NCBI GenBank assembly: GCA_903834675.1
Contig: CAILKC010000101.1
Location: 1 to 9,400 of the forward strand
DNA from: an uncultured Victivallales bacterium
Lineage (GTDB): Bacteria; Verrucomicrobiota; Lentisphaeria; Oligosphaerales; JAFGRS01
Direction: 5' to 3'
DNA: 9,400 nt
Shown here: one piece after another, positions 624 through 9,400 of the stretch
Position numbering within the stretch: the stretch's first letter is position 1
Layout of the letters: each line of letters begins with the position of its first letter
Program-made: the position numbers and the translations under genes
The notes under the pieces: model-generated
Database searches by the model: none
Seen by the model: only the letters and a program-made list of their open reading frames with translations
What the model was told of the DNA's origin: nothing

Positions 624-1769
624 ATGCGGCGGGCGGCCGTGTGGCTCTTCGTTTTGCTTGCTATTCCGGCGCCATCTCTCCTGGCCGTCGACGCGCTGGC
701 GGTTCCCGCTCCCGCTCCTGCCACGCTGATGGCCCCAGCGCCACAATTCGATTTTGGCACCGTCGCGGCCGGCGCCGTAGTCGAGCATGATTTCGTCCTC
801 GAAAACCGCGGCGACGTCGTGGTGCGCATCGAGAAAGTACGCAGTTCATGTGGCTGCACTGCGACCCAAGTCGCCGCCTCCGAGATCGCGCCAGGCGGGC
901 AGACCACGGTGCATGCGCGCTTCGACACCACCGGCCGCAGCGGTCGGCAGGATAAGGAAATCTTCGTCAGCAGCAACGCGCCCGTGAATCCGCTGCTGGT
1001 CTGCCGACTGACGGGCGCCGTCGAACCGGCGCCGCCCCCAGCGCTCGTCGCACCTGCTCCCGCGGCGGTTCCGGCTGCTGCGACGGCCTCTGCTCCCGCT
1101 CCTGCTGCGGTGCTTGCTCCGGTTTCAATCGCAAGCGCCGCCAGCGGGCTGGAAGCCAGCGTGCCCGTCATTGATTTTGGCCGTGTCTGGAGCGAGGAGC
1201 GGCCCCAACAAGCGGTCACCCTCAGCAATACGGGGACCGCGCCGCTGCGGCTTCTGGCGGTCACCGACGACTGTGCCTGTTTCTCCTCGGCTCTGGAGCG
1301 GCGGGTGCTGGCCCCAGGGGAGAAGACGGTGCTACGCTTGCAGCTTCATCCGGGCGACACGAAAGGGGAACTGCTGCAAACGCTGACGGTGGCCACCGAC
1401 GAGGTCGGCGCGGCGCCGTTGCGCCTGCTGGTTCGCGCTCAGATTGCGCCACGAATTGAAGCCATGCCGGCGTCGCTCCTGCTGCTGGACACGCCCGCAG
1501 GCAAGACGGTGGAACGGGTGCTGAAGCTGGCCAGCAATGATGGCGAGGCCTTCCACATCACCCGGATCGAAACTGCGGTTAAGGGCCTGCTGGTCGAGGC
1601 GCTCCCCGGCGGAGATGGGAAGACCTCGAGTCTGCGTTGTCGCTTCACCGCCCCGGCCGAACCCGGTCCGTTGGGCGGGGTGGTCGAAATCGTTACGGAT
1701 CGGCTTGCGGGCGGCACCGTGAGCCTTCGCGTCATCGGTACAGTGGTCACTTCTGGAGGACCTTCATGA
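624..1769 (+). CDS. Secreted DUF1573 repeat protein
   Basis: A 381-residue exported protein of the DUF1573 family, whose biochemical role is not established; members are beta-sandwich proteins of the periplasm or cell surface. Residues 1-26 form a signal peptide (Arg-Arg, then a hydrophobic VWLFVLLAI stretch, Ala-rich cleavage region near 21-26). Domain 1 (about 40-131) has the family hallmarks: FDFGTV at 42-47, SSCGCT at 74-79, a PGG turn and a closing FDTTGRSG segment. A Pro/Ala-rich linker follows (133-178). Domain 2 (about 180-276) keeps IDFG at 183-186 and a changed cysteine motif, CAC (217-219). Residues 277-381 look like a third, diverged unit without cysteines. I chose ATG 624 because it begins the signal peptide; the frame is open back to GTG 450, and ATG 582 is an alternative. 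Only a weak GAGGG precedes 624. The stop overlaps the next start, so the two genes are co-transcribed and probably translationally coupled. Confidence 0.85.
   Translation: MRRAAVWLFVLLAIPAPSLLAVDALAVPAPAPATLMAPAPQFDFGTVAAGAVVEHDFVLENRGDVVVRIEKVRSSCGCTATQVAASEIAPGGQTTVHARFDTTGRSGRQDKEIFVSSNAPVNPLLVCRLTGAVEPAPPPALVAPAPAAVPAAATASAPAPAAVLAPVSIASAASGLEASVPVIDFGRVWSEERPQQAVTLSNTGTAPLRLLAVTDDCACFSSALERRVLAPGEKTVLRLQLHPGDTKGELLQTLTVATDEVGAAPLRLLVRAQIAPRIEAMPASLLLLDTPAGKTVERVLKLASNDGEAFHITRIETAVKGLLVEALPGGDGKTSSLRCRFTAPAEPGPLGGVVEIVTDRLAGGTVSLRVIGTVVTSGGPS
1755..1760 (+). promoter_or_regulatory. Shine-Dalgarno site of the giant gene
   Basis: GGAGGA lies inside the last codons of the DUF1573 gene, 5 nt before ATG 1766. 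The start and the upstream stop share ATGA (1766-1769). This fixes the start of the giant gene and is the classical arrangement for translational coupling. Confidence 0.85.
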
Positions 1770-4700
1770 AGATGGTCCATCGCAATCTCGCCCTGGCTTC
1801 CCTGGCTGCCCCGGCCAACGCAACGCGGCCGCACCGCCAGAGAGTCCGTCCGCGCCTCTTCCCCTGGGGCGCTGTACTCGGACTCATCCTCGGCCTGAGC
1901 CTCGCCGCCCGGGCCGGGGTTACTCTTTCTTCGAACACTACCGGCGACGAAGCCGGGCCCGGGCAGTTGGTTTACATCACGTACACGTTGAACAACAACA
2001 CGGACCCTGCTCAGTCGCTCAGTCACATGTCGCCCTCCATTGACCTGAAGTCCAGCAAGTTCATTTACGAGAAAGACAGCGCGGTAATCACCAACGACAC
2101 GACCGTTCTGACCAGTCAGAACCCGACCACCGTGGGCAACGTCCTCACCTGGAACCTCGACGACCTGTACGATCCCGACCCGACCGTCGCGATCGGCAAA
2201 ATCCTAACCATTGTCTTTGCCGTGCGGGTGGACTGCGGTGCCGCGACCATCCAGTTCAGTACCGCCACGCCCCTGACCCTCTCCACCGATGGCGTCCGCA
2301 CTTGGAGCGCTTTGTATGGACTGACCGTTCAGGAACCGTCGCTGCAACTGACCCTCACGCCGTCGAGCCAGACGGTGCAATTGAGCAGCGGCGCCATCGT
2401 CACCTGGACGGCCAAGATCAAGAACATCGGATTGGGCCGCGCCTTGAATCTGAAAGTCAAGTTCGGGTTCGATTCCGGGCTGATTTTTCAGACCGGCAGT
2501 GCCACGGTGGGCTCCAAAGTCGACAGCAACGCGGGTACCTCAACGTCGGGAACCAGTCCGTCGCCGTACAGTGTGGCCACCACCATTTACACTTGGGATT
2601 TCGGCACCGACATGACATCGGATCCCGACGGCGGCGTCGGTTTGAGCGACGCCGATGGCGATAGCCGGTACGACGATTTGGCCCCCCTGGCGGAAGTCAC
2701 CATCACCGGCATCAAGGCGCAGACTCAGAACTGTGATCCGGTCGGGTTGTTCCTCGACGTCACCTGCGGCAATCCGGCGACTCCCTGCATCAACACGGCC
2801 ACCGACGGTTCGACCGCGGTCGGGACGATCACCGTGGTGCCGGCGGCTCCATCGTTCACCTACGCTTTTTCCAGTCTGACCGGCCTTGACTACTGCACCG
2901 GCGTCAAGGACGCCACATTCACCGTCACCAATCCGCCGGCCGCCAGTGCCGCCGCGCGTAACCTGCAATTCACCATCAGCAGTTTTCCCACCGGCCTCGC
3001 TTTCGTTTATCCCGATAGTCAGAGCGGGTCAGGCACTGGGCTGTACACCATTCTCTACGATTGGAATGGTACCATCGCCACCAATCCTACCGTGCTCAGC
3101 GGCGCCAGCGCCGTCACCTTCGCTTCCTCCAAGTTCGCCAACTTCCCGATCCTCGACAAGGGCAAGCGGTTGGTGGTCAAGTTCGACGTCGACTGTCTTA
3201 CCGGCGGCAGCGCCTACTGTTCCTCATACCCGCTGAGTACGTCCATCTATGTGCAGCCGAGTTATACGGACATCTGTGGTGACGGGTACACGCCGGTAGC
3301 CACAGCGGTCGCGATCAGCCGCAACGAACCGGTGCGTCTCGCGCTTTCCCTGGGCAACACCGGCACCGACGAGATTTACATCGGCGATACCGGCCGCTTC
3401 TACGACATCAGCGCCACTATTGCCGCCCTCGCAGGCGATCCCTGGCTCCAGCTGAGCGGAATGATGCCGGTGACGCTGACCTATACCTACGACCCGGCTT
3501 TGGTGTACACGGGCACCTCGAACAAATCCGGATTATGCACGACCGACCCGGTCGATAACCCTGTCGCCCACACCCTGACGTGGAGCGCCCCCCCGGGCAT
3601 CACCTTCTCATCGGGCAGCCCCGCCTTCGGCTGTCGGCTGACGTTCAACGTCACGGACCGGGGGCTCGGCGATCCCTGCGAAGCCGGCCGCGAGTACAAC
3701 AACTCTTTCACTTTCCCCACACTCAACCTGACCGATTACCTGGGCTGCCCCTATACCATCGGCGGTTCCGGCGGTTTCCGCGGCTATATCAACCAGGAGG
3801 TGGACTATACCGGCACGCCGATCTACTCCATGGACAAGCAGGTCACCTACATCGACACATTCCTGACGGCCGTTGGCGAAACGCATCGCCCCTACCGGAC
3901 AACCGTCACGGTCGACTTCGAGTCGGCTGCGCCCTCGACGTGGTCCGGAATCGCCAAAACGCTGCAGCCGGAAACCCCGGCCGGCGTCCCCTACTTGGAA
4001 GTCGTCCTCGTTGAGCGCCCGAGCTACGGTCAGGTTTTTCGTACCCTCGAGTCGGTCACCTACAACGGGGTCGACTACGGCCCCAACGCACCCATTCTCG
4101 CAAACCGGATAATATCAAACGCGAATGTGATCTCCTATCCGACTGGCGTTGACTACGGGGGCGGCCACCTCGGCAACGGCGAGGCCTGGCTCTTCCTCGG
4201 CGCCCTGGATGCCGCCGGGATTCCCAAGCCGAGCGCGGGTAACATCCTCGAGGTGATCTGGGACTTCGATCCGCCGACCAGCTTCGGCACCACGGCGCAG
4301 TTTTCCGAAATCCGCTGGCCGGTTTCCGATTCCGGATGCGGGTCCGAATTCGGATACGAAAGCGGTTGTTGGATGACGGTCTCCGATCAGGATCTCACGG
4401 TTCAGGTCACTTCCCCGTATTCCGTGCAGCATGGTGCCGTTACCACTCACAGTTTTCTGCTTGCCCGGACCAACTTGGCCCACTATGTCTACGATGTCAA
4501 GGTCACCATGAACCTGGACCCGGACAGCAACGTCCGGGATTTTGCCTACAAGGTCGGCACGACAGTGTTCAGCGGCTTCACCAACCAGGGCGGCGCCGGG
4601 ATTTCGGCGTTCGAACCGACCGTGGTTGGCAATACCCTGGAGTGGGATTTCCGTGCCAAAGGTTACCGGGTTTTAGAGGCGGTCGGCAGCATCAGCGTGG

Positions 4701-7700
4701 ACCTGCTGACTTCGCCGTGCGAAGTCGGTACCTCGTACTCGCTCGCGGTGGATTACAATCGCTATGCCGGTTACGAAGCCGACCCGGGCGGTACCGGCGC
4801 CCGGGCCGCCACCGTCACCGACACCGCGAACCCCGTCCTCTATTCGCCCACCCTGACGACCACGGTTACGCCCTTGGCACGCACGGCCGTCAATCACGAT
4901 GACTATTGGATGCTGCGCGTTGCCAACACCGGCTATGCTCCGGCCTGGAACCTCGGCCTCACCGCCACCGTCGGTTCGGCCATCGTCGTCGATGGCGCCA
5001 AACTGATGTCCGGCGCTGACTGGACCTACACCAACGGCACTCAGATCGCGCCGTCCGGCGTAGCGGCCGGCGGCAACATCACCTGGACTTTTCAGGGCGT
5101 GGGGTACTACAGCGGGCTGGGCCCATTTGTACCCAGTAGTGTGTCCAACGGCGTCACGCTCCTTACGTCAGGTGTCGACAAGGACCTTCTCTCCGTCGGC
5201 CAGTGGGCGTGGGCCTCGAACGGCACATCCAACACGATCTACGTCAATCTCGGCGGCGCTGTGCCCGATGCGACGCCGTTGAGTATGACTGCGGTCGGCA
5301 CGCAGACTTTCCCCGAGGCGCTCTACGGGTGGGTGCAGGTTGGTGCCACTTTCACCTACTACCTGCAGAGGGCTGGTGGCGGCGATCCGGGCCCATTTGT
5401 ACCCAGTAGTGTGTCCAACGGCGCCACGCCCCTTACGTTAGGTGTCGACAAGGACCTTCTCTCCGCCAACCAGTGGGCGTGGGCCTCGAACGGCACATTC
5501 AACACGATCTACGTCAATCTTGGCGGCGCTGTGCCCGATGCGACGCCGTTGAGTATGACTGCGGTCGGCACGCAGACTTTCCCCGACGCGCCCTACGAGT
5601 GGGTTCAGGTTGGCGCCACCAACACCTACTATGTCCGCGGCGACCCCGACGGCACCGGCGGCCTCAGTGATGTTGACGGCGACGGCTACTGCGATGACCT
5701 CGCCTCGGGGGCGACGCTGTACATCCTTGTGAAGCTCCATTATATCGGCTGCGTTTCTTCGAACATGAGCATCAGCCTGGCCACGCAGGCCGGCGGTGAA
5801 TTCCCGGTGGGTACCGCCTACACGACGCCGGTGGTCACCACCCGGCCGGCGGCTTTCTGCACTACGGGCAGCGGCAGTTCTACGGTTACGGAAGCCACGG
5901 AAGGGTTCCAGACCGTCCATGTGAGCCCGAAACTTGCACTGTGTACATCCAAACCGCTCAAGTTCCGGGTCAAGAACATCAAGACCCCCACGGTTTACGA
6001 ACCGGTGTTCCGCCAGTACATCCCGAAAGCGGCAGACTACGGGGTTACGGCGGACTTGACCGGCTCCACCTATGACTTGGACATGAACGGCGACGGCACC
6101 TACGAAAGCACGGGCCTTCCCCTCCCGCCCCCGACCATTATTCCGGGCGCCGTCGGGCAACCGGATACGTACCAATGGAGTTACACTCAGTTTTCCGGCG
6201 CCTTCAACAACGGTTTCCCCTCCGGTGCCATCATCGACATGAATATCCTGATCTGGGGCGATTGCCGGGCGAGCCACAAAACGATTACCTTCGGTTCCCA
6301 GATCGGGTATAAGACGCTCTGCAACGATGTCCGCACCACGACTCAAGTCAATACCAGTGTCGAACTGCTCGACCTGATCGGGACGATCACCATCGAAGCT
6401 CGGAACGTGACCACCGGCGGTACCTTCGCCACCACTCCGGTCATCGGCGGTACCAATGACCAGATCGAGTATCGCCTGACGCTGAAGAATGACGGCGGCA
6501 CCACGCTCCCGAAAGCGACTCTCGCCGTCACCCTACCGGCCAACTTCTCGGATGTGACCAGTTCGGTCCCGGTCTGGGGCGACCATACGGGCAACGTCCT
6601 GACCTGGACCGAGAGCGATATGACCGTTGACAACCCCAAGAAAATGCCGTTGGAACAGGCGCAGACCACCCAGTTCACCTTCACCGCGAAACTGAACGGC
6701 GCCAGCGTCTGCGTGAACCGCGATGTATCCGCCGTACTGACCCTGGGCTGTCTGGCCACGGGCCCCATCGCCGCCTGTACGCTCGACAGCACCACCACCA
6801 CGCATTCCCTGGTCACCGTCCCGACCATGGCCAATCCTGAAGTGTTCCTCTCCGCCACCGACCTCGCCGGCGCCGGTACCGCCTTGACCGCCAACGGCAT
6901 CGTCACGGCCGCCCTGACCGGTAAAGCCGGCCCGGCCAAGGACCCGGTCCTCACCCTCACCATTCCCGCCGGCTGGACCTATGACGTCGTCGGCACCCAC
7001 GACTTCTCCGAGGTAAACGGCGGCGCCGCCGGCGGGATTGACGGCGTCTCCGTCGGCTCATCCGGGAGCGGCCCGACGACCATCACCGCCACCTTCACCA
7101 ACAGCGCCGGCGCGGTGCTGTTGCGCGACGGTAAAGTCGCCCGCTTCCGCATCAAGGTCGTGCAGAATAGTTGCTTCGACATTACCTACGACGCAACCGT
7201 GCAGACGGAAACCACCTCCGTCGAGGGGGGCAACAGCCTGGATCCCGTGGAGCCCGTCGACTTCGCGGTCAGCGCCTCGCTGGCCTATAAGGACACCTGC
7301 GATGTGGCCCAGACCCCGGCGACCGCGAGTGCGTCGCTGACCGTCAAGACCCCCGACGTGGATACCTGGGTTTCCGGCGACACGCCCAGCATCGTAACCG
7401 GCGTGGCCGACACCGCCTCTCTCACCGTCAACCTCAAGAACAACGGCGACGCTCCGGCCCCCTACGTGACCGCCTATGTCGCCATCGGCAACGCCTGGAC
7501 CGTCAACTCCTGGCCCGCTGGTTTCGGCGGCGACCTCAACCTCTGCGGCTCCGAATATGCCTGGGTGCAGCGTGGTGGCAGTGGGAACGTCTACTACCTC
7601 ATCGCGGCGGGAAAGGCGGGAAGTGAGCGCGATCCTGGCCTTTTCCTTCCCACCGCCCTTGGCTCGGCCCCCGCAAAGGCGAACATTGGACTCGTTCTCG

Positions 7701-9400
7701 CGTCCGGAGATTGGTGCTACGGCGATCCCGATGCCTTCGGCTTCTCCACAGTGTATTACTATAGCGGCAGTGGCCTAGCCCCCAGCGTTTCTCTGCTCGC
7801 CACCGTGCCCGCGCTCACCGTTCCCCCAGCGCTCGCCCCGGCTGCTCTGCGCCAGACCACCAACGGCGGCGGCACCTACCAGCCCGGCGTCATCGGCGGC
7901 GTCAACCACTTCCGCGTGGTCCGGCAGACCGTTGCCGACATCGCTGCTAGCGCCACCAGCACTCTCGCTTTCGGCCTCACCGTCGCCAACAAGACCGAAC
8001 CCCTGGCCTTCCTTGCCTACGGCCGCGGCGAAGTCCGCAAGGTGGATGGCACGACCTCCATGGGCGACTACTCCGAGGACTCCTACCTGGCCGGCATCGT
8101 CGGCTTCAACCTGGCCAAGACCCTCAATGACACCAGCGAGATCTTATCGAGCGGCAACACGGTGCAGATCGGCGAAGACGTGCGGGTCAAACTGGCGGCG
8201 GAGTGGTTCGGCGGCGGTAGTCAACTCATCACCGCCGCCTCGATCACCGACGACCTCCCCGCCGGCCAGGGCCACATCAGCTCAACCTTCACTCCTGCCG
8301 GTGGCAACATGCTGGCCCCGACTACGACCACCCTCACCAATGCCGGTACCGACGTGGCCAACATCATCGCCACGAATGCAGGTACCCAGATCTTCTCGGG
8401 CTTCGGCAGCATCGATACCAGCACCGCCGCCAAGACCGCCGAGATGTTCGTCTGGTCGCGGATCCTGAACAACCAAAGCGGTGCCCCTTTGACCTATATC
8501 AACAAGCACGGGGAAAGCAAGATCGACACCGCCGACGCCTCTGCCTTCACCTACCTCGGCCGGTCCTTCACCAAGGACTCCTCCGGTTTCGCCGACGCCG
8601 GCCTGACCGCGACTGTCACCATCAGCGAACCCGCAGTCCCCATCGACTCGTTTCAGGTGGTCGATCTGACCGTGTATCCGGATCCCACCGGACACTGGGT
8701 CACCTCCATTGCCAGCATCGCCGTCGGCCATAGCGTGCGCTTCATACTGGTGGCGACGGCGACCGCCGCCAAGGCCACGCCGTTCGAGGCGGTCTTCACC
8801 CTCGACATGGCCGATTCCATCACCTACACGTCATCCTCCGACACGGGCGCGGGGGGCACCAACAGCGTGGTCACCTGGCCCGCCGTCGACCTGGTTCCCG
8901 GCACGACCTATACTCGCACGGTCGACGCTGTCATCAGCACCGCCACCAACCCGACACAGTTGATGACCAACACCGCCAAGGTCGATTTCGACAGTCTCGA
9001 TGGCGCCAGCGGCGCCGAGCAGACCCCGCTCGGGACTACCGACACCACCACCGGCGCCCGCGCCTACACCACGACGGCCGAGACCAACGTCACCATCACC
9101 AGTGAAAACGTCGAAGTCGTCGGCAGTACCTTGGTCAGCAGGAGTTCGGAACCCGGCACCGCCACCGCTGGCGACCAACTCACGGCTGATGTGACCCTCG
9201 GCGAGGAAGTCGAGATCATGCTGGAGGTCCTCATCCCGCCCGGGACGGTGGACAATCCGGTCATGTCGTCCGTCCTACCCACCGGCCTGACCTTCGTGGA
9301 AGCCAGCCATGCCACCATCACGGACACTGATCTCCAACTCAGTCCGGTCACCAGTTCCTCCGTGACCTACGACAGCGGCACCCGGAAAGTGAGCTGGGCC
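1766..9400 (+). CDS. Giant secreted DUF11-like repeat protein (3' end outside window)
   Basis: At least 2545 residues; no stop occurs before the window ends. Residues 1-50 are a long signal peptide: basic n-region, hydrophobic core GAVLGLILGLSLA (35-47), cleavage after ARA at 50. Units of about 150-170 residues follow. Most contain a V-x-x-W strand (VLTWNLDDL, VLTWTESDM, TLEWDF) and end in a strand closed by Cys, at 157, 323, 477, 638, 858, 985, 1329, 1500, 1649 and 1803. This resembles DUF11-type Ig-like repeats of surface proteins. Acidic loops like calcium sites occur at 295-305, 1302-1312 and 1437-1447. A 90-residue module occurs twice in tandem (1119 to about 1290) and once diverged (1931-2006). 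After about 2110 the repeats change type: TSE plus LPAG near 2120-2170, and SSEPG plus LPTGLTF after 2449. I see no catalytic domain. The likely role is an adhesin or envelope structure; any anchor lies beyond the window. The frame is certain, the function an inference. Confidence 0.9.
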   Translation, partial: MKMVHRNLALASLAAPANATRPHRQRVRPRLFPWGAVLGLILGLSLAARAGVTLSSNTTGDEAGPGQLVYITYTLNNNTDPAQSLSHMSPSIDLKSSKFIYEKDSAVITNDTTVLTSQNPTTVGNVLTWNLDDLYDPDPTVAIGKILTIVFAVRVDCGAATIQFSTATPLTLSTDGVRTWSALYGLTVQEPSLQLTLTPSSQTVQLSSGAIVTWTAKIKNIGLGRALNLKVKFGFDSGLIFQTGSATVGSKVDSNAGTSTSGTSPSPYSVATTIYTWDFGTDMTSDPDGGVGLSDADGDSRYDDLAPLAEVTITGIKAQTQNCDPVGLFLDVTCGNPATPCINTATDGSTAVGTITVVPAAPSFTYAFSSLTGLDYCTGVKDATFTVTNPPAASAAARNLQFTISSFPTGLAFVYPDSQSGSGTGLYTILYDWNGTIATNPTVLSGASAVTFASSKFANFPILDKGKRLVVKFDVDCLTGGSAYCSSYPLSTSIYVQPSYTDICGDGYTPVATAVAISRNEPVRLALSLGNTGTDEIYIGDTGRFYDISATIAALAGDPWLQLSGMMPVTLTYTYDPALVYTGTSNKSGLCTTDPVDNPVAHTLTWSAPPGITFSSGSPAFGCRLTFNVTDRGLGDPCEAGREYNNSFTFPTLNLTDYLGCPYTIGGSGGFRGYINQEVDYTGTPIYSMDKQVTYIDTFLTAVGETHRPYRTTVTVDFESAAPSTWSGIAKTLQPETPAGVPYLEVVLVERPSYGQVFRTLESVTYNGVDYGPNAPILANRIISNANVISYPTGVDYGGGHLGNGEAWLFLGALDAAGIPKPSAGNILEVIWDFDPPTSFGTTAQFSEIRWPVSDSGCGSEFGYESGCWMTVSDQDLTVQVTSPYSVQHGAVTTHSFLLARTNLAHYVYDVKVTMNLDPDSNVRDFAYKVGTTVFSGFTNQGGAGISAFEPTVVGNTLEWDFRAKGYRVLEAVGSISVDLLTSPCEVGTSYSLAVDYNRYAGYEADPGGTGARAATVTDTANPVLYSPTLTTTVTPLARTAVNHDDYWMLRVANTGYAPAWNLGLTATVGSAIVVDGAKLMSGADWTYTNGTQIAPSGVAAGGNITWTFQGVGYYSGLGPFVPSSVSNGVTLLTSGVDKDLLSVGQWAWASNGTSNTIYVNLGGAVPDATPLSMTAVGTQTFPEALYGWVQVGATFTYYLQRAGGGDPGPFVPSSVSNGATPLTLGVDKDLLSANQWAWASNGTFNTIYVNLGGAVPDATPLSMTAVGTQTFPDAPYEWVQVGATNTYYVRGDPDGTGGLSDVDGDGYCDDLASGATLYILVKLHYIGCVSSNMSISLATQAGGEFPVGTAYTTPVVTTRPAAFCTTGSGSSTVTEATEGFQTVHVSPKLALCTSKPLKFRVKNIKTPTVYEPVFRQYIPKAADYGVTADLTGSTYDLDMNGDGTYESTGLPLPPPTIIPGAVGQPDTYQWSYTQFSGAFNNGFPSGAIIDMNILIWGDCRASHKTITFGSQIGYKTLCNDVRTTTQVNTSVELLDLIGTITIEARNVTTGGTFATTPVIGGTNDQIEYRLTLKNDGGTTLPKATLAVTLPANFSDVTSSVPVWGDHTGNVLTWTESDMTVDNPKKMPLEQAQTTQFTFTAKLNGASVCVNRDVSAVLTLGCLATGPIAACTLDSTTTTHSLVTVPTMANPEVFLSATDLAGAGTALTANGIVTAALTGKAGPAKDPVLTLTIPAGWTYDVVGTHDFSEVNGGAAGGIDGVSVGSSGSGPTTITATFTNSAGAVLLRDGKVARFRIKVVQNSCFDITYDATVQTETTSVEGGNSLDPVEPVDFAVSASLAYKDTCDVAQTPATASASLTVKTPDVDTWVSGDTPSIVTGVADTASLTVNLKNNGDAPAPYVTAYVAIGNAWTVNSWPAGFGGDLNLCGSEYAWVQRGGSGNVYYLIAAGKAGSERDPGLFLPTALGSAPAKANIGLVLASGDWCYGDPDAFGFSTVYYYSGSGLAPSVSLLATVPALTVPPALAPAALRQTTNGGGTYQPGVIGGVNHFRVVRQTVADIAASATSTLAFGLTVANKTEPLAFLAYGRGEVRKVDGTTSMGDYSEDSYLAGIVGFNLAKTLNDTSEILSSGNTVQIGEDVRVKLAAEWFGGGSQLITAASITDDLPAGQGHISSTFTPAGGNMLAPTTTTLTNAGTDVANIIATNAGTQIFSGFGSIDTSTAAKTAEMFVWSRILNNQSGAPLTYINKHGESKIDTADASAFTYLGRSFTKDSSGFADAGLTATVTISEPAVPIDSFQVVDLTVYPDPTGHWVTSIASIAVGHSVRFILVATATAAKATPFEAVFTLDMADSITYTSSSDTGAGGTNSVVTWPAVDLVPGTTYTRTVDAVISTATNPTQLMTNTAKVDFDSLDGASGAEQTPLGTTDTTTGARAYTTTAETNVTITSENVEVVGSTLVSRSSEPGTATAGDQLTADVTLGEEVEIMLEVLIPPGTVDNPVMSSVLPTGLTFVEASHATITDTDLQLSPVTSSSVTYDSGTRKVSWA
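5119..5388 (+). repeat. Tandem coding duplication, copy 1 (90-residue W module)
   Basis: A 270-bp (90-codon) in-frame direct repeat within the giant gene. It encodes residues 1119-1208, starting GPFVPSSVSNG and containing QWAWASNG, NTIYVNLGGAVPD and YGWVQVGATFTYY. Over the 244 alignable bases (5119-5362 against 5389-5632) I count 17 differences, about 93% identity, with 65 identical bases at 5252-5316. Several codons here (CCA, TTT, GTA, AGT, CTT, TCA) are less favoured in the surrounding gene. Confidence 0.95.
5389..5632 (+). repeat. Tandem coding duplication, copy 2 (90-residue W module)
   Basis: The second copy follows without a gap and encodes residues 1209 to about 1289. Compared with copy 1, ten residues are replaced (V/A, L/P, S/L, V/A, G/N, S/F, E/D, L/P, G/E, F/N) and five codons change silently. 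After the shared TYY the sequence returns to the host domain, with a GDPDGTGG turn and the acidic loop SDVDGDGYCDDL. Confidence 0.95.
7556..7783 (+). repeat. Diverged third copy of the W module
   Basis: Residues 1931-2006 align by eye with the tandem modules starting at their YxWVQ segment. Shared landmarks in the same order are YxWVQxG, YYL, AG, DPGxFxP, a Leu then Ser before a Trp (LASGDW against LLSANQW), and FxTxY followed by a Gly-rich turn and Pro. It has a 4-residue insertion (SERD region) and reads GDWCYGDPDAFGF where the tandem copies read NQWAWASNGTF. DNA identity is no longer obvious. GGA and CTT codons cluster here, against GGC and CTC/CTG in the flanks. Confidence 0.7.

Follow-up and report, generated by a model that had tools for sequence, protein, structure and literature searches.

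How did a stretch of about 90 residues come to occur twice in the same unit of a giant repeat protein, and is it at home only there? We address this question in a window of 9,400 nucleotides, the whole stretch of DNA that was analysed.

The host protein

The host is encoded by ORF 1637-9400, whose likely start is ATG 1766 and which is open at the window's 3' end.

1766..9400, plus strand: host, a giant repeat protein with DUF11-like units (ORF 1637-9400)

Read by eye, its layout is a signal-like N-terminus and then a chain of DUF11-like units. It scores 16.1 bits with PF01345 (DUF11; cut-off 24.6) and 19.4 bits with TIGR01451 (cut-off 24). The protein probably lies on the cell surface. The upstream gene (450-1769) encodes two DUF1573 / HYDIN-type Ig-like stretches, and upstream of this gene pair positions 1-348 hold a 91-bp tandem repeat (2.7 copies) followed by GAACCCT x14.

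Borders of site 1 and empty homologues

Where does the host end and the insert begin? The following features, all on the plus strand, define the site.

5075..5092, plus strand: host W-strand NITWTF, upstream border of site 1 (frame reading and homologue alignment)
5117..5641, plus strand: site 1 insert, frame residues ~1161-1335, 175 residues, borders good to within a few residues (empty-site alignments)
5642..5686, plus strand: host resumes, DPDGTGGLSDVDGDG (aligned with DSLVDADGDG in L080 and GGLIDADGDG in L088)

Homologues of the host were sought in the phylum of a Verrucomicrobia MAG (G001, locus L070), where 3 of 194 genomes matched, one of them via the module only, and in the class of G076, where 4 of 240 matched, one being already among the former. 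Five homologous loci were fetched (L080, L081, L086, L087 and L088). Site 1 is empty in both of those whose frames span it, L080 and L088: the host sequence NITWTFQGVGYYSG, 175 residues, DPDGTGGLSDVDGDGYCDDL aligns with NAIWDLAITNAVDSLVDADGDGFFDDL in L080 and with NVIWSLETSIVLGGLIDADGDGFVNDL in L088. For L088, BLAST covers both flanks (host residues 857-1106 and 1314-1662 against residues 840-1086 and 1097-1414). The two homologues are distant, at 26-29% identity in the BLAST segments adjoining the site; neither a close host homologue nor a one-copy intermediate was found in the searches of the phylum of G001 and the class of G076. At E 0.1 the module profile matched nothing in the frames of more than 400 residues at the five loci. 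The frame of L087 loses its likeness to the other host homologues just before its end, as if frameshifted.

The initial annotation had placed the module in a loop after the W-strand, separate from the host fold, and had looked to homologues for zero, one or more copies. Both spanning homologues have zero copies. Since they are empty at site 1, the module is no integral part of that fold. The border motifs stand as they had been read, NITWTF at frame residue 1147 (nt 5075) and DPDGTGGL at 1336 (nt 5642), as does the uninterrupted unit said to mirror them, in which IYTWDF lies at frame residue 317, or 274 counted from ATG 1766. This sister unit of the same protein (residues ~317-345) has the same kind of borders and no module. 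Just outside the insert lies a 23-nt inverted repeat, 83% complementary (5060-5082 / 5667-5689), which was equalled in 1 of 300 codon shuffles of the flanks.

Tandem duplication at site 1

An in-frame tandem duplication had been read at 5119..5632, and it is confirmed by Tandem Repeats Finder (5119-5631, period 270, 1.9 copies, 93% matches, 0% indels, score 914) and by base-by-base comparison, in which the period-270 identity begins at 5120 and fades after ~5362 (partner 5632). The 270-base duplication is in frame with ORF 1637-9400.

5120..5389, plus strand: copy 1 in the register of the DNA duplication (Tandem Repeats Finder and base-by-base identity)
5390..5632, plus strand: copy 2 in the same register, 81 comparable codons (the same two methods and codon comparison)

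The duplication thus stands, but the length once given for it, two copies of 90 residues, does not: copy 2 matches copy 1 over ~81 codons, so that the extra stretch relative to the homologues is ~175 residues rather than 180. The cysteine spacing that had been adduced is also correct as arithmetic (Cys 1028 to Cys 1372 is 344, which less 180 leaves 164). It is a weak argument alone, however, because a spacing of 347 occurs from Cys 681 to Cys 1028, where site 1 has no part; by eye, the equivalent Cys is absent from one unit. Between the copies 15 of the 81 comparable codons differ, 10 of them altering the residue, and constraint on the duplicated copies looks loose.

Register of the module

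If the unit is begun at YxW rather than at GPFV, a third copy is uncovered in the same protein (phmmer, domain E 6e-6). The natural module boundary is the YxW start, and so the pair in the window is permuted, which the initial annotation missed. Against a profile HMM built from 61 modules from outside the window (59 from IMG/VR and two from L070) the insert resolves into three parts.

5153..5278, plus strand: C-half of a module (profile 37-80), 11.5 bits with the HMM built without the window
5324..5548, plus strand: one complete module, YGW...PDATP (profile 3-80), residues 1230-1304, 35.1 bits, E 6e-13
5594..5641, plus strand: N-half of a module, YEWVQVGATNTYYVRG, joined to the host; tandem copy of 5324-5362, 3.2 bits alone

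The highest domain score in 200 block-shuffled hosts was 6.8 bits, a maximum clearly exceeded by the full copy (35.1) and by the third copy (27.8). At 3.2 bits the N-half falls within the shuffled range and its score means nothing alone; 5594-5641 is assigned as an N-half because it is a tandem copy of the central module. In the register of the family, site 1 therefore reads C-half, full copy, N-half. The third copy and the central copy of the pair each have the N-half ahead of the C-half, while the outer parts of the pair read C...N.

How much of the module is retained? At the 23 strongly conserved positions (those conserved in at least 85% of the 61 members) the full copy keeps 13, as does the third copy. 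Both retain the shared W, YY, P, L, W, T, Y and P and are without the conserved S, E, R and D. It is thus the structure, more likely than a specific binding site, that is conserved.

A structure prediction had been suggested as a check on whether the module is an independent fold, and the full copy is modelled as a small beta-domain with pLDDT 80.9 (86-95 in its first seven blocks). The folding alignment comprised the full copy, the third copy and the 61 relatives; alignments A4 and A6, in which host homologues were misplaced, were left out. In the AlphaFold model of the pair, the host part is mostly at pLDDT 27-47. The two ends of the module would lie close together, letting a loop of the host carry the domain.

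A third module at site 2

The third copy, also missed initially, lies well apart from the pair.

7553..7789, plus strand: third, diverged module in normal order, residues 1973-2051 (27.8 bits, E 1e-10; phmmer 6e-6)

Site 2 is a different loop of another host unit. It is without a module in both homologues aligned there, by a MAFFT alignment that lies outside the BLAST segments: L081 shows a clean gap, and L080 has ~35 residues of its own and no module. The same protein is thereby shown to have received a second, separate insertion.

Distribution of the module family

Is the module confined to this host? The same module is widespread across unrelated phage and microbial proteins, sitting in loops wherever its position could be checked; the initial annotation had missed how widespread it is. 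We define the family here by modules of the form YxW...GTNEYY...GDNDTLG..TVYVRL..DPD. It was reached only through the consensus of a conserved module with the same YxW-first layout, a query which found 69 IMG/VR loci that encode the module. Queries taken from the window itself found nothing: the module region gave no match among long proteins (7986 candidates scored), a 500-residue query gave no protein match (4638 candidates), and in IMG/VR no relative occurred among 20 pattern matches. Neither the window module nor the consensus matched in the 50,697 phage records of INPHARED. A scan of genome contigs confirmed at least two loci among the 598 pattern matches listed.

A protein database search with one phage module returned 197 proteins at E 1e-5 among 396 candidates; as the query was a phage protein and only proteins of similar length were searched, this set is biased towards phages. 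The best-scoring 120 of the 197, a set enriched in multi-copy proteins, all carry the module. Together with 71 IMG/VR frames they make up 191 rows, partly redundant (for instance, P0014 matches L012 at 100%, and one and the same module appears in L012 and L013). With the modules masked, the hosts of these rows form 41 clusters, with up to 92 rows in a cluster and 27 singletons, an upper estimate since fragments inflate the number. The host contexts include phage tail tubular protein B (PHROG 376), an internal virion protein (PHROG 511) and beta-helix proteins. Nowhere else among the 191 rows does the C...N order of the window occur.

In the cellular genomes searched the module is sporadic. It occurs in 2 of 288 genomes in the phylum of G001, namely G001 and one weak, partial match (G131, 24.6 bits) that we do not count as an established carrier; in 1 of 193 in the class of G076 (G373); in 1 of 14 in the family of G373 (G373 itself); and in 1 of 194 in the phylum of the archaeal genome G002 (G002 itself). 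Within an open frame of 8765 residues, the Verrucomicrobia MAG G001 has two tandem modules (L082). An archaeal (Woesearchaeota) beta-helix protein, L071, carries the module in one repeat and another insert at the corresponding place in its sister repeats.

Does the family have a name? Pfam and NCBIfam gave the consensus and the window pieces weak matches, all below the cut-offs. For 63 members, PHROGs gave 0 families at E 0.01, and Pfam five families (best E 0.014) with one or two members each. The motif strings of the module occur in no paper of the literature searched, which likewise gave no paper on nested insertion or on tail tubular inserts; no account of the module was seen there. A capsid-protein match among PDB sequences (E 0.005, 35 residues) is weak and was taken as chance.

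Empty sites in other hosts

The loops of other hosts, too, are found occupied and empty. Of 71 viral frames, 11 were chosen for alignment, and in 9 of these the module sits in tail tubular protein B with MRV..dGg.v before it and ..PY..aDL..l.ftQSAD after it. A search of phage records matched 190 to one such protein, and four were fetched. In Tr60 and PfDIW6 there is almost nothing at the site, and in Vibrio phage MZH0603 and Pelagibacter phage Lederberg (L093, L096) the same loop holds E1_FCCH (PF16190). That insert shares its loop with the module but belongs to another domain family, which suggests that the tail tubular protein B loop accepts more than one domain.

In G373, two paralogous proteins carry the module in the same loop. 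The host matches in 8 of the 14 genomes of the family, G373 included. Relatives from three genomes (L099, L100 and L103) have the flanks joined without a module, and match coordinates indicate the same for G083 and for one G373 paralogue; L101 aligned poorly and was left out of this count.

Self-nesting

Can the module also receive itself? Nests, in which an N-part, at least one complete module and the complementary C-part follow one another, occur in 6 of the 191 rows, a count that leaves out the partial patterns P0002 (FCF), P0008 (FFNF), L051 (FN, where the frame ends) and L068 (FFC). In profile coordinates the break points are 29/33 in L041, 40/34 and 46/46 in P0004, 37/38 in P0005, 18/24 in P0006, 20/21 in P0013 and 27/35 in P0024. 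P0004 is apparently nested four levels deep, if one counts an unscored N-part, DEWAKSRNGTDEYFYG, read by eye. In P0048 and L066 the module is interrupted at the N/C loop by another sequence or domain of more than 100 residues. By eye, the break points in the window fall in this N/C loop, which is also interrupted in P0006, P0013, P0048 and L066.

When rejoined, the outer modules of nests look complete. In five of the six nested proteins they are more like modules from elsewhere than like the inner ones, so that the inner ones, for the most part, are not fresh duplicates made on the spot. Ranked by match to the outer module, own-protein modules stand at 29 to 173 of 238 in these five nests and come first only in P0006; local self-duplication was accordingly rejected as the source of nested modules.

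Probable origin of the pair

We conclude, with a probability of about 0.86, that an acquired, loop-tolerated beta-domain of ~90 residues was inserted in frame after the W-strand and was then tandemly duplicated by recombination. Rare illegitimate recombination would place the domain in loops, the more easily if its two ends lie near each other. Here the domain would have entered, in frame, the loop after the W-strand of one host unit. Tandem duplication by recombination and subsequent trimming could then leave a permuted pair; the order C-half, full copy, N-half might be what was left when a longer tandem array lost both its ends, or a crossover in the N/C loop might have produced it. The modules may protrude as decoration, serving adhesion, glycan contact or mere spacing. 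Each compared copy in the window has lost 10 of the 23 conserved positions, which favours a structural or spacing role here.

Could the modules instead be in normal order and have exchanged strands with the host? The first module would then borrow the host NITWTF, the last N-half (YEWVQVG...) would replace the host W-strand, and the insert would be a chimera of host and module, not a permuted pair sitting in a loop. We hold this reading to be possible but less likely. The AlphaFold model of the pair has a low-confidence strand (blocks 52-57) at ITWTFQG, before the first C-half, and the last N-half has no strand, as strand exchange would have it; by eye, ITWTFQGVGYYSGL is like a shortened W...YY hairpin. 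On the other hand, NITW aligns with the host homologues (TNAIW, TNVIW), and the module profile gives no match at NITW; the other alignment rows of the pair model are mostly in the YxW register, which favours such pairing. A permuted pair, inserted and duplicated in a loop, is the likelier reading.

It is improbable that the module is ancestral in the host unit and was lost in the homologues. These are indeed distant and few (five fetched, two informative per site), but the sister unit at ~317-345 has like borders without a module, and members of the family turn up only here and there in the cellular genomes searched. We give still less credence to a selfish DNA element that inserts in frame, in the manner of PARCELs or of the Rickettsia palindromic elements, which are DNA elements that do so. 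The presence of the module in many unrelated genes and inside itself would suit such an element, as would the imperfect 23-nt inverted repeat that flanks site 1. However, the third bases of conserved four-fold codons are at near-maximal entropy across the 61 modules, and of the 69 viral modules only one has flanking inverted repeats better than shuffles (p at most 0.05), site 2 being no better than shuffles (p 0.24). On these grounds we rejected the DNA-element idea; it is the protein that seems to be kept. Least probable of all is an assembly artefact that doubled one copy, for with 15 of 81 codons different the second copy does not reproduce the first exactly, as an assembly repeat would, and the copies diverge at their ends.

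Beyond this locus, we lean towards the view that the unnamed beta-domain is a general loop plug-in. It would have entered phage virion proteins, beta-helix proteins and giant repeat proteins of bacteria and archaea; it would in turn take up insertions, both of its own kind (apparently to a depth of four levels) and of other domains; and it could undergo circular permutation and tandem amplification where it sits, as in this window. Its main reservoir, and its route between cells, may be phage virion genes. That domains insert into loops is already known. Occupied and empty sites in several unrelated hosts, recent tandem and permuted copies and self-nesting with complementary break points here form a natural series on which loops accept folded domains, and this series also bears on how permutation arises and on the exchange of parts between phage virion proteins and cellular repeat proteins. 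A model of the family would aid the annotation of 'hypothetical' virion proteins.

Comparison with known systems

How does the module compare with inserts already described? In XylC (GH120 xylosidase, PDB 3VST) an Ig-like beta-sandwich interrupts a parallel beta-helix, and by analogy the module could possibly contact glycans. The GH120-type setting differs from the present one, however, in that no beta-helix family was found in the window's protein at E 1. Tailed phages carry promiscuous Ig-like domains, to which the module is alike as a small beta-domain added to phage structural proteins. Unlike these, it has only scattered weak matches to Pfam (63 members, best E 0.014), and its family can occupy internal loops and nest in itself. 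PARCELs (PMC2996958) are 25-residue repeats whose DNA has dyad symmetry; the repeat-coding sequence occurs across unrelated proteins, and horizontal transfer has been proposed for it. PARCELs and the module are alike in having spread among unrelated proteins, but the module is a beta-domain of ~90 residues without conservation at the level of DNA.
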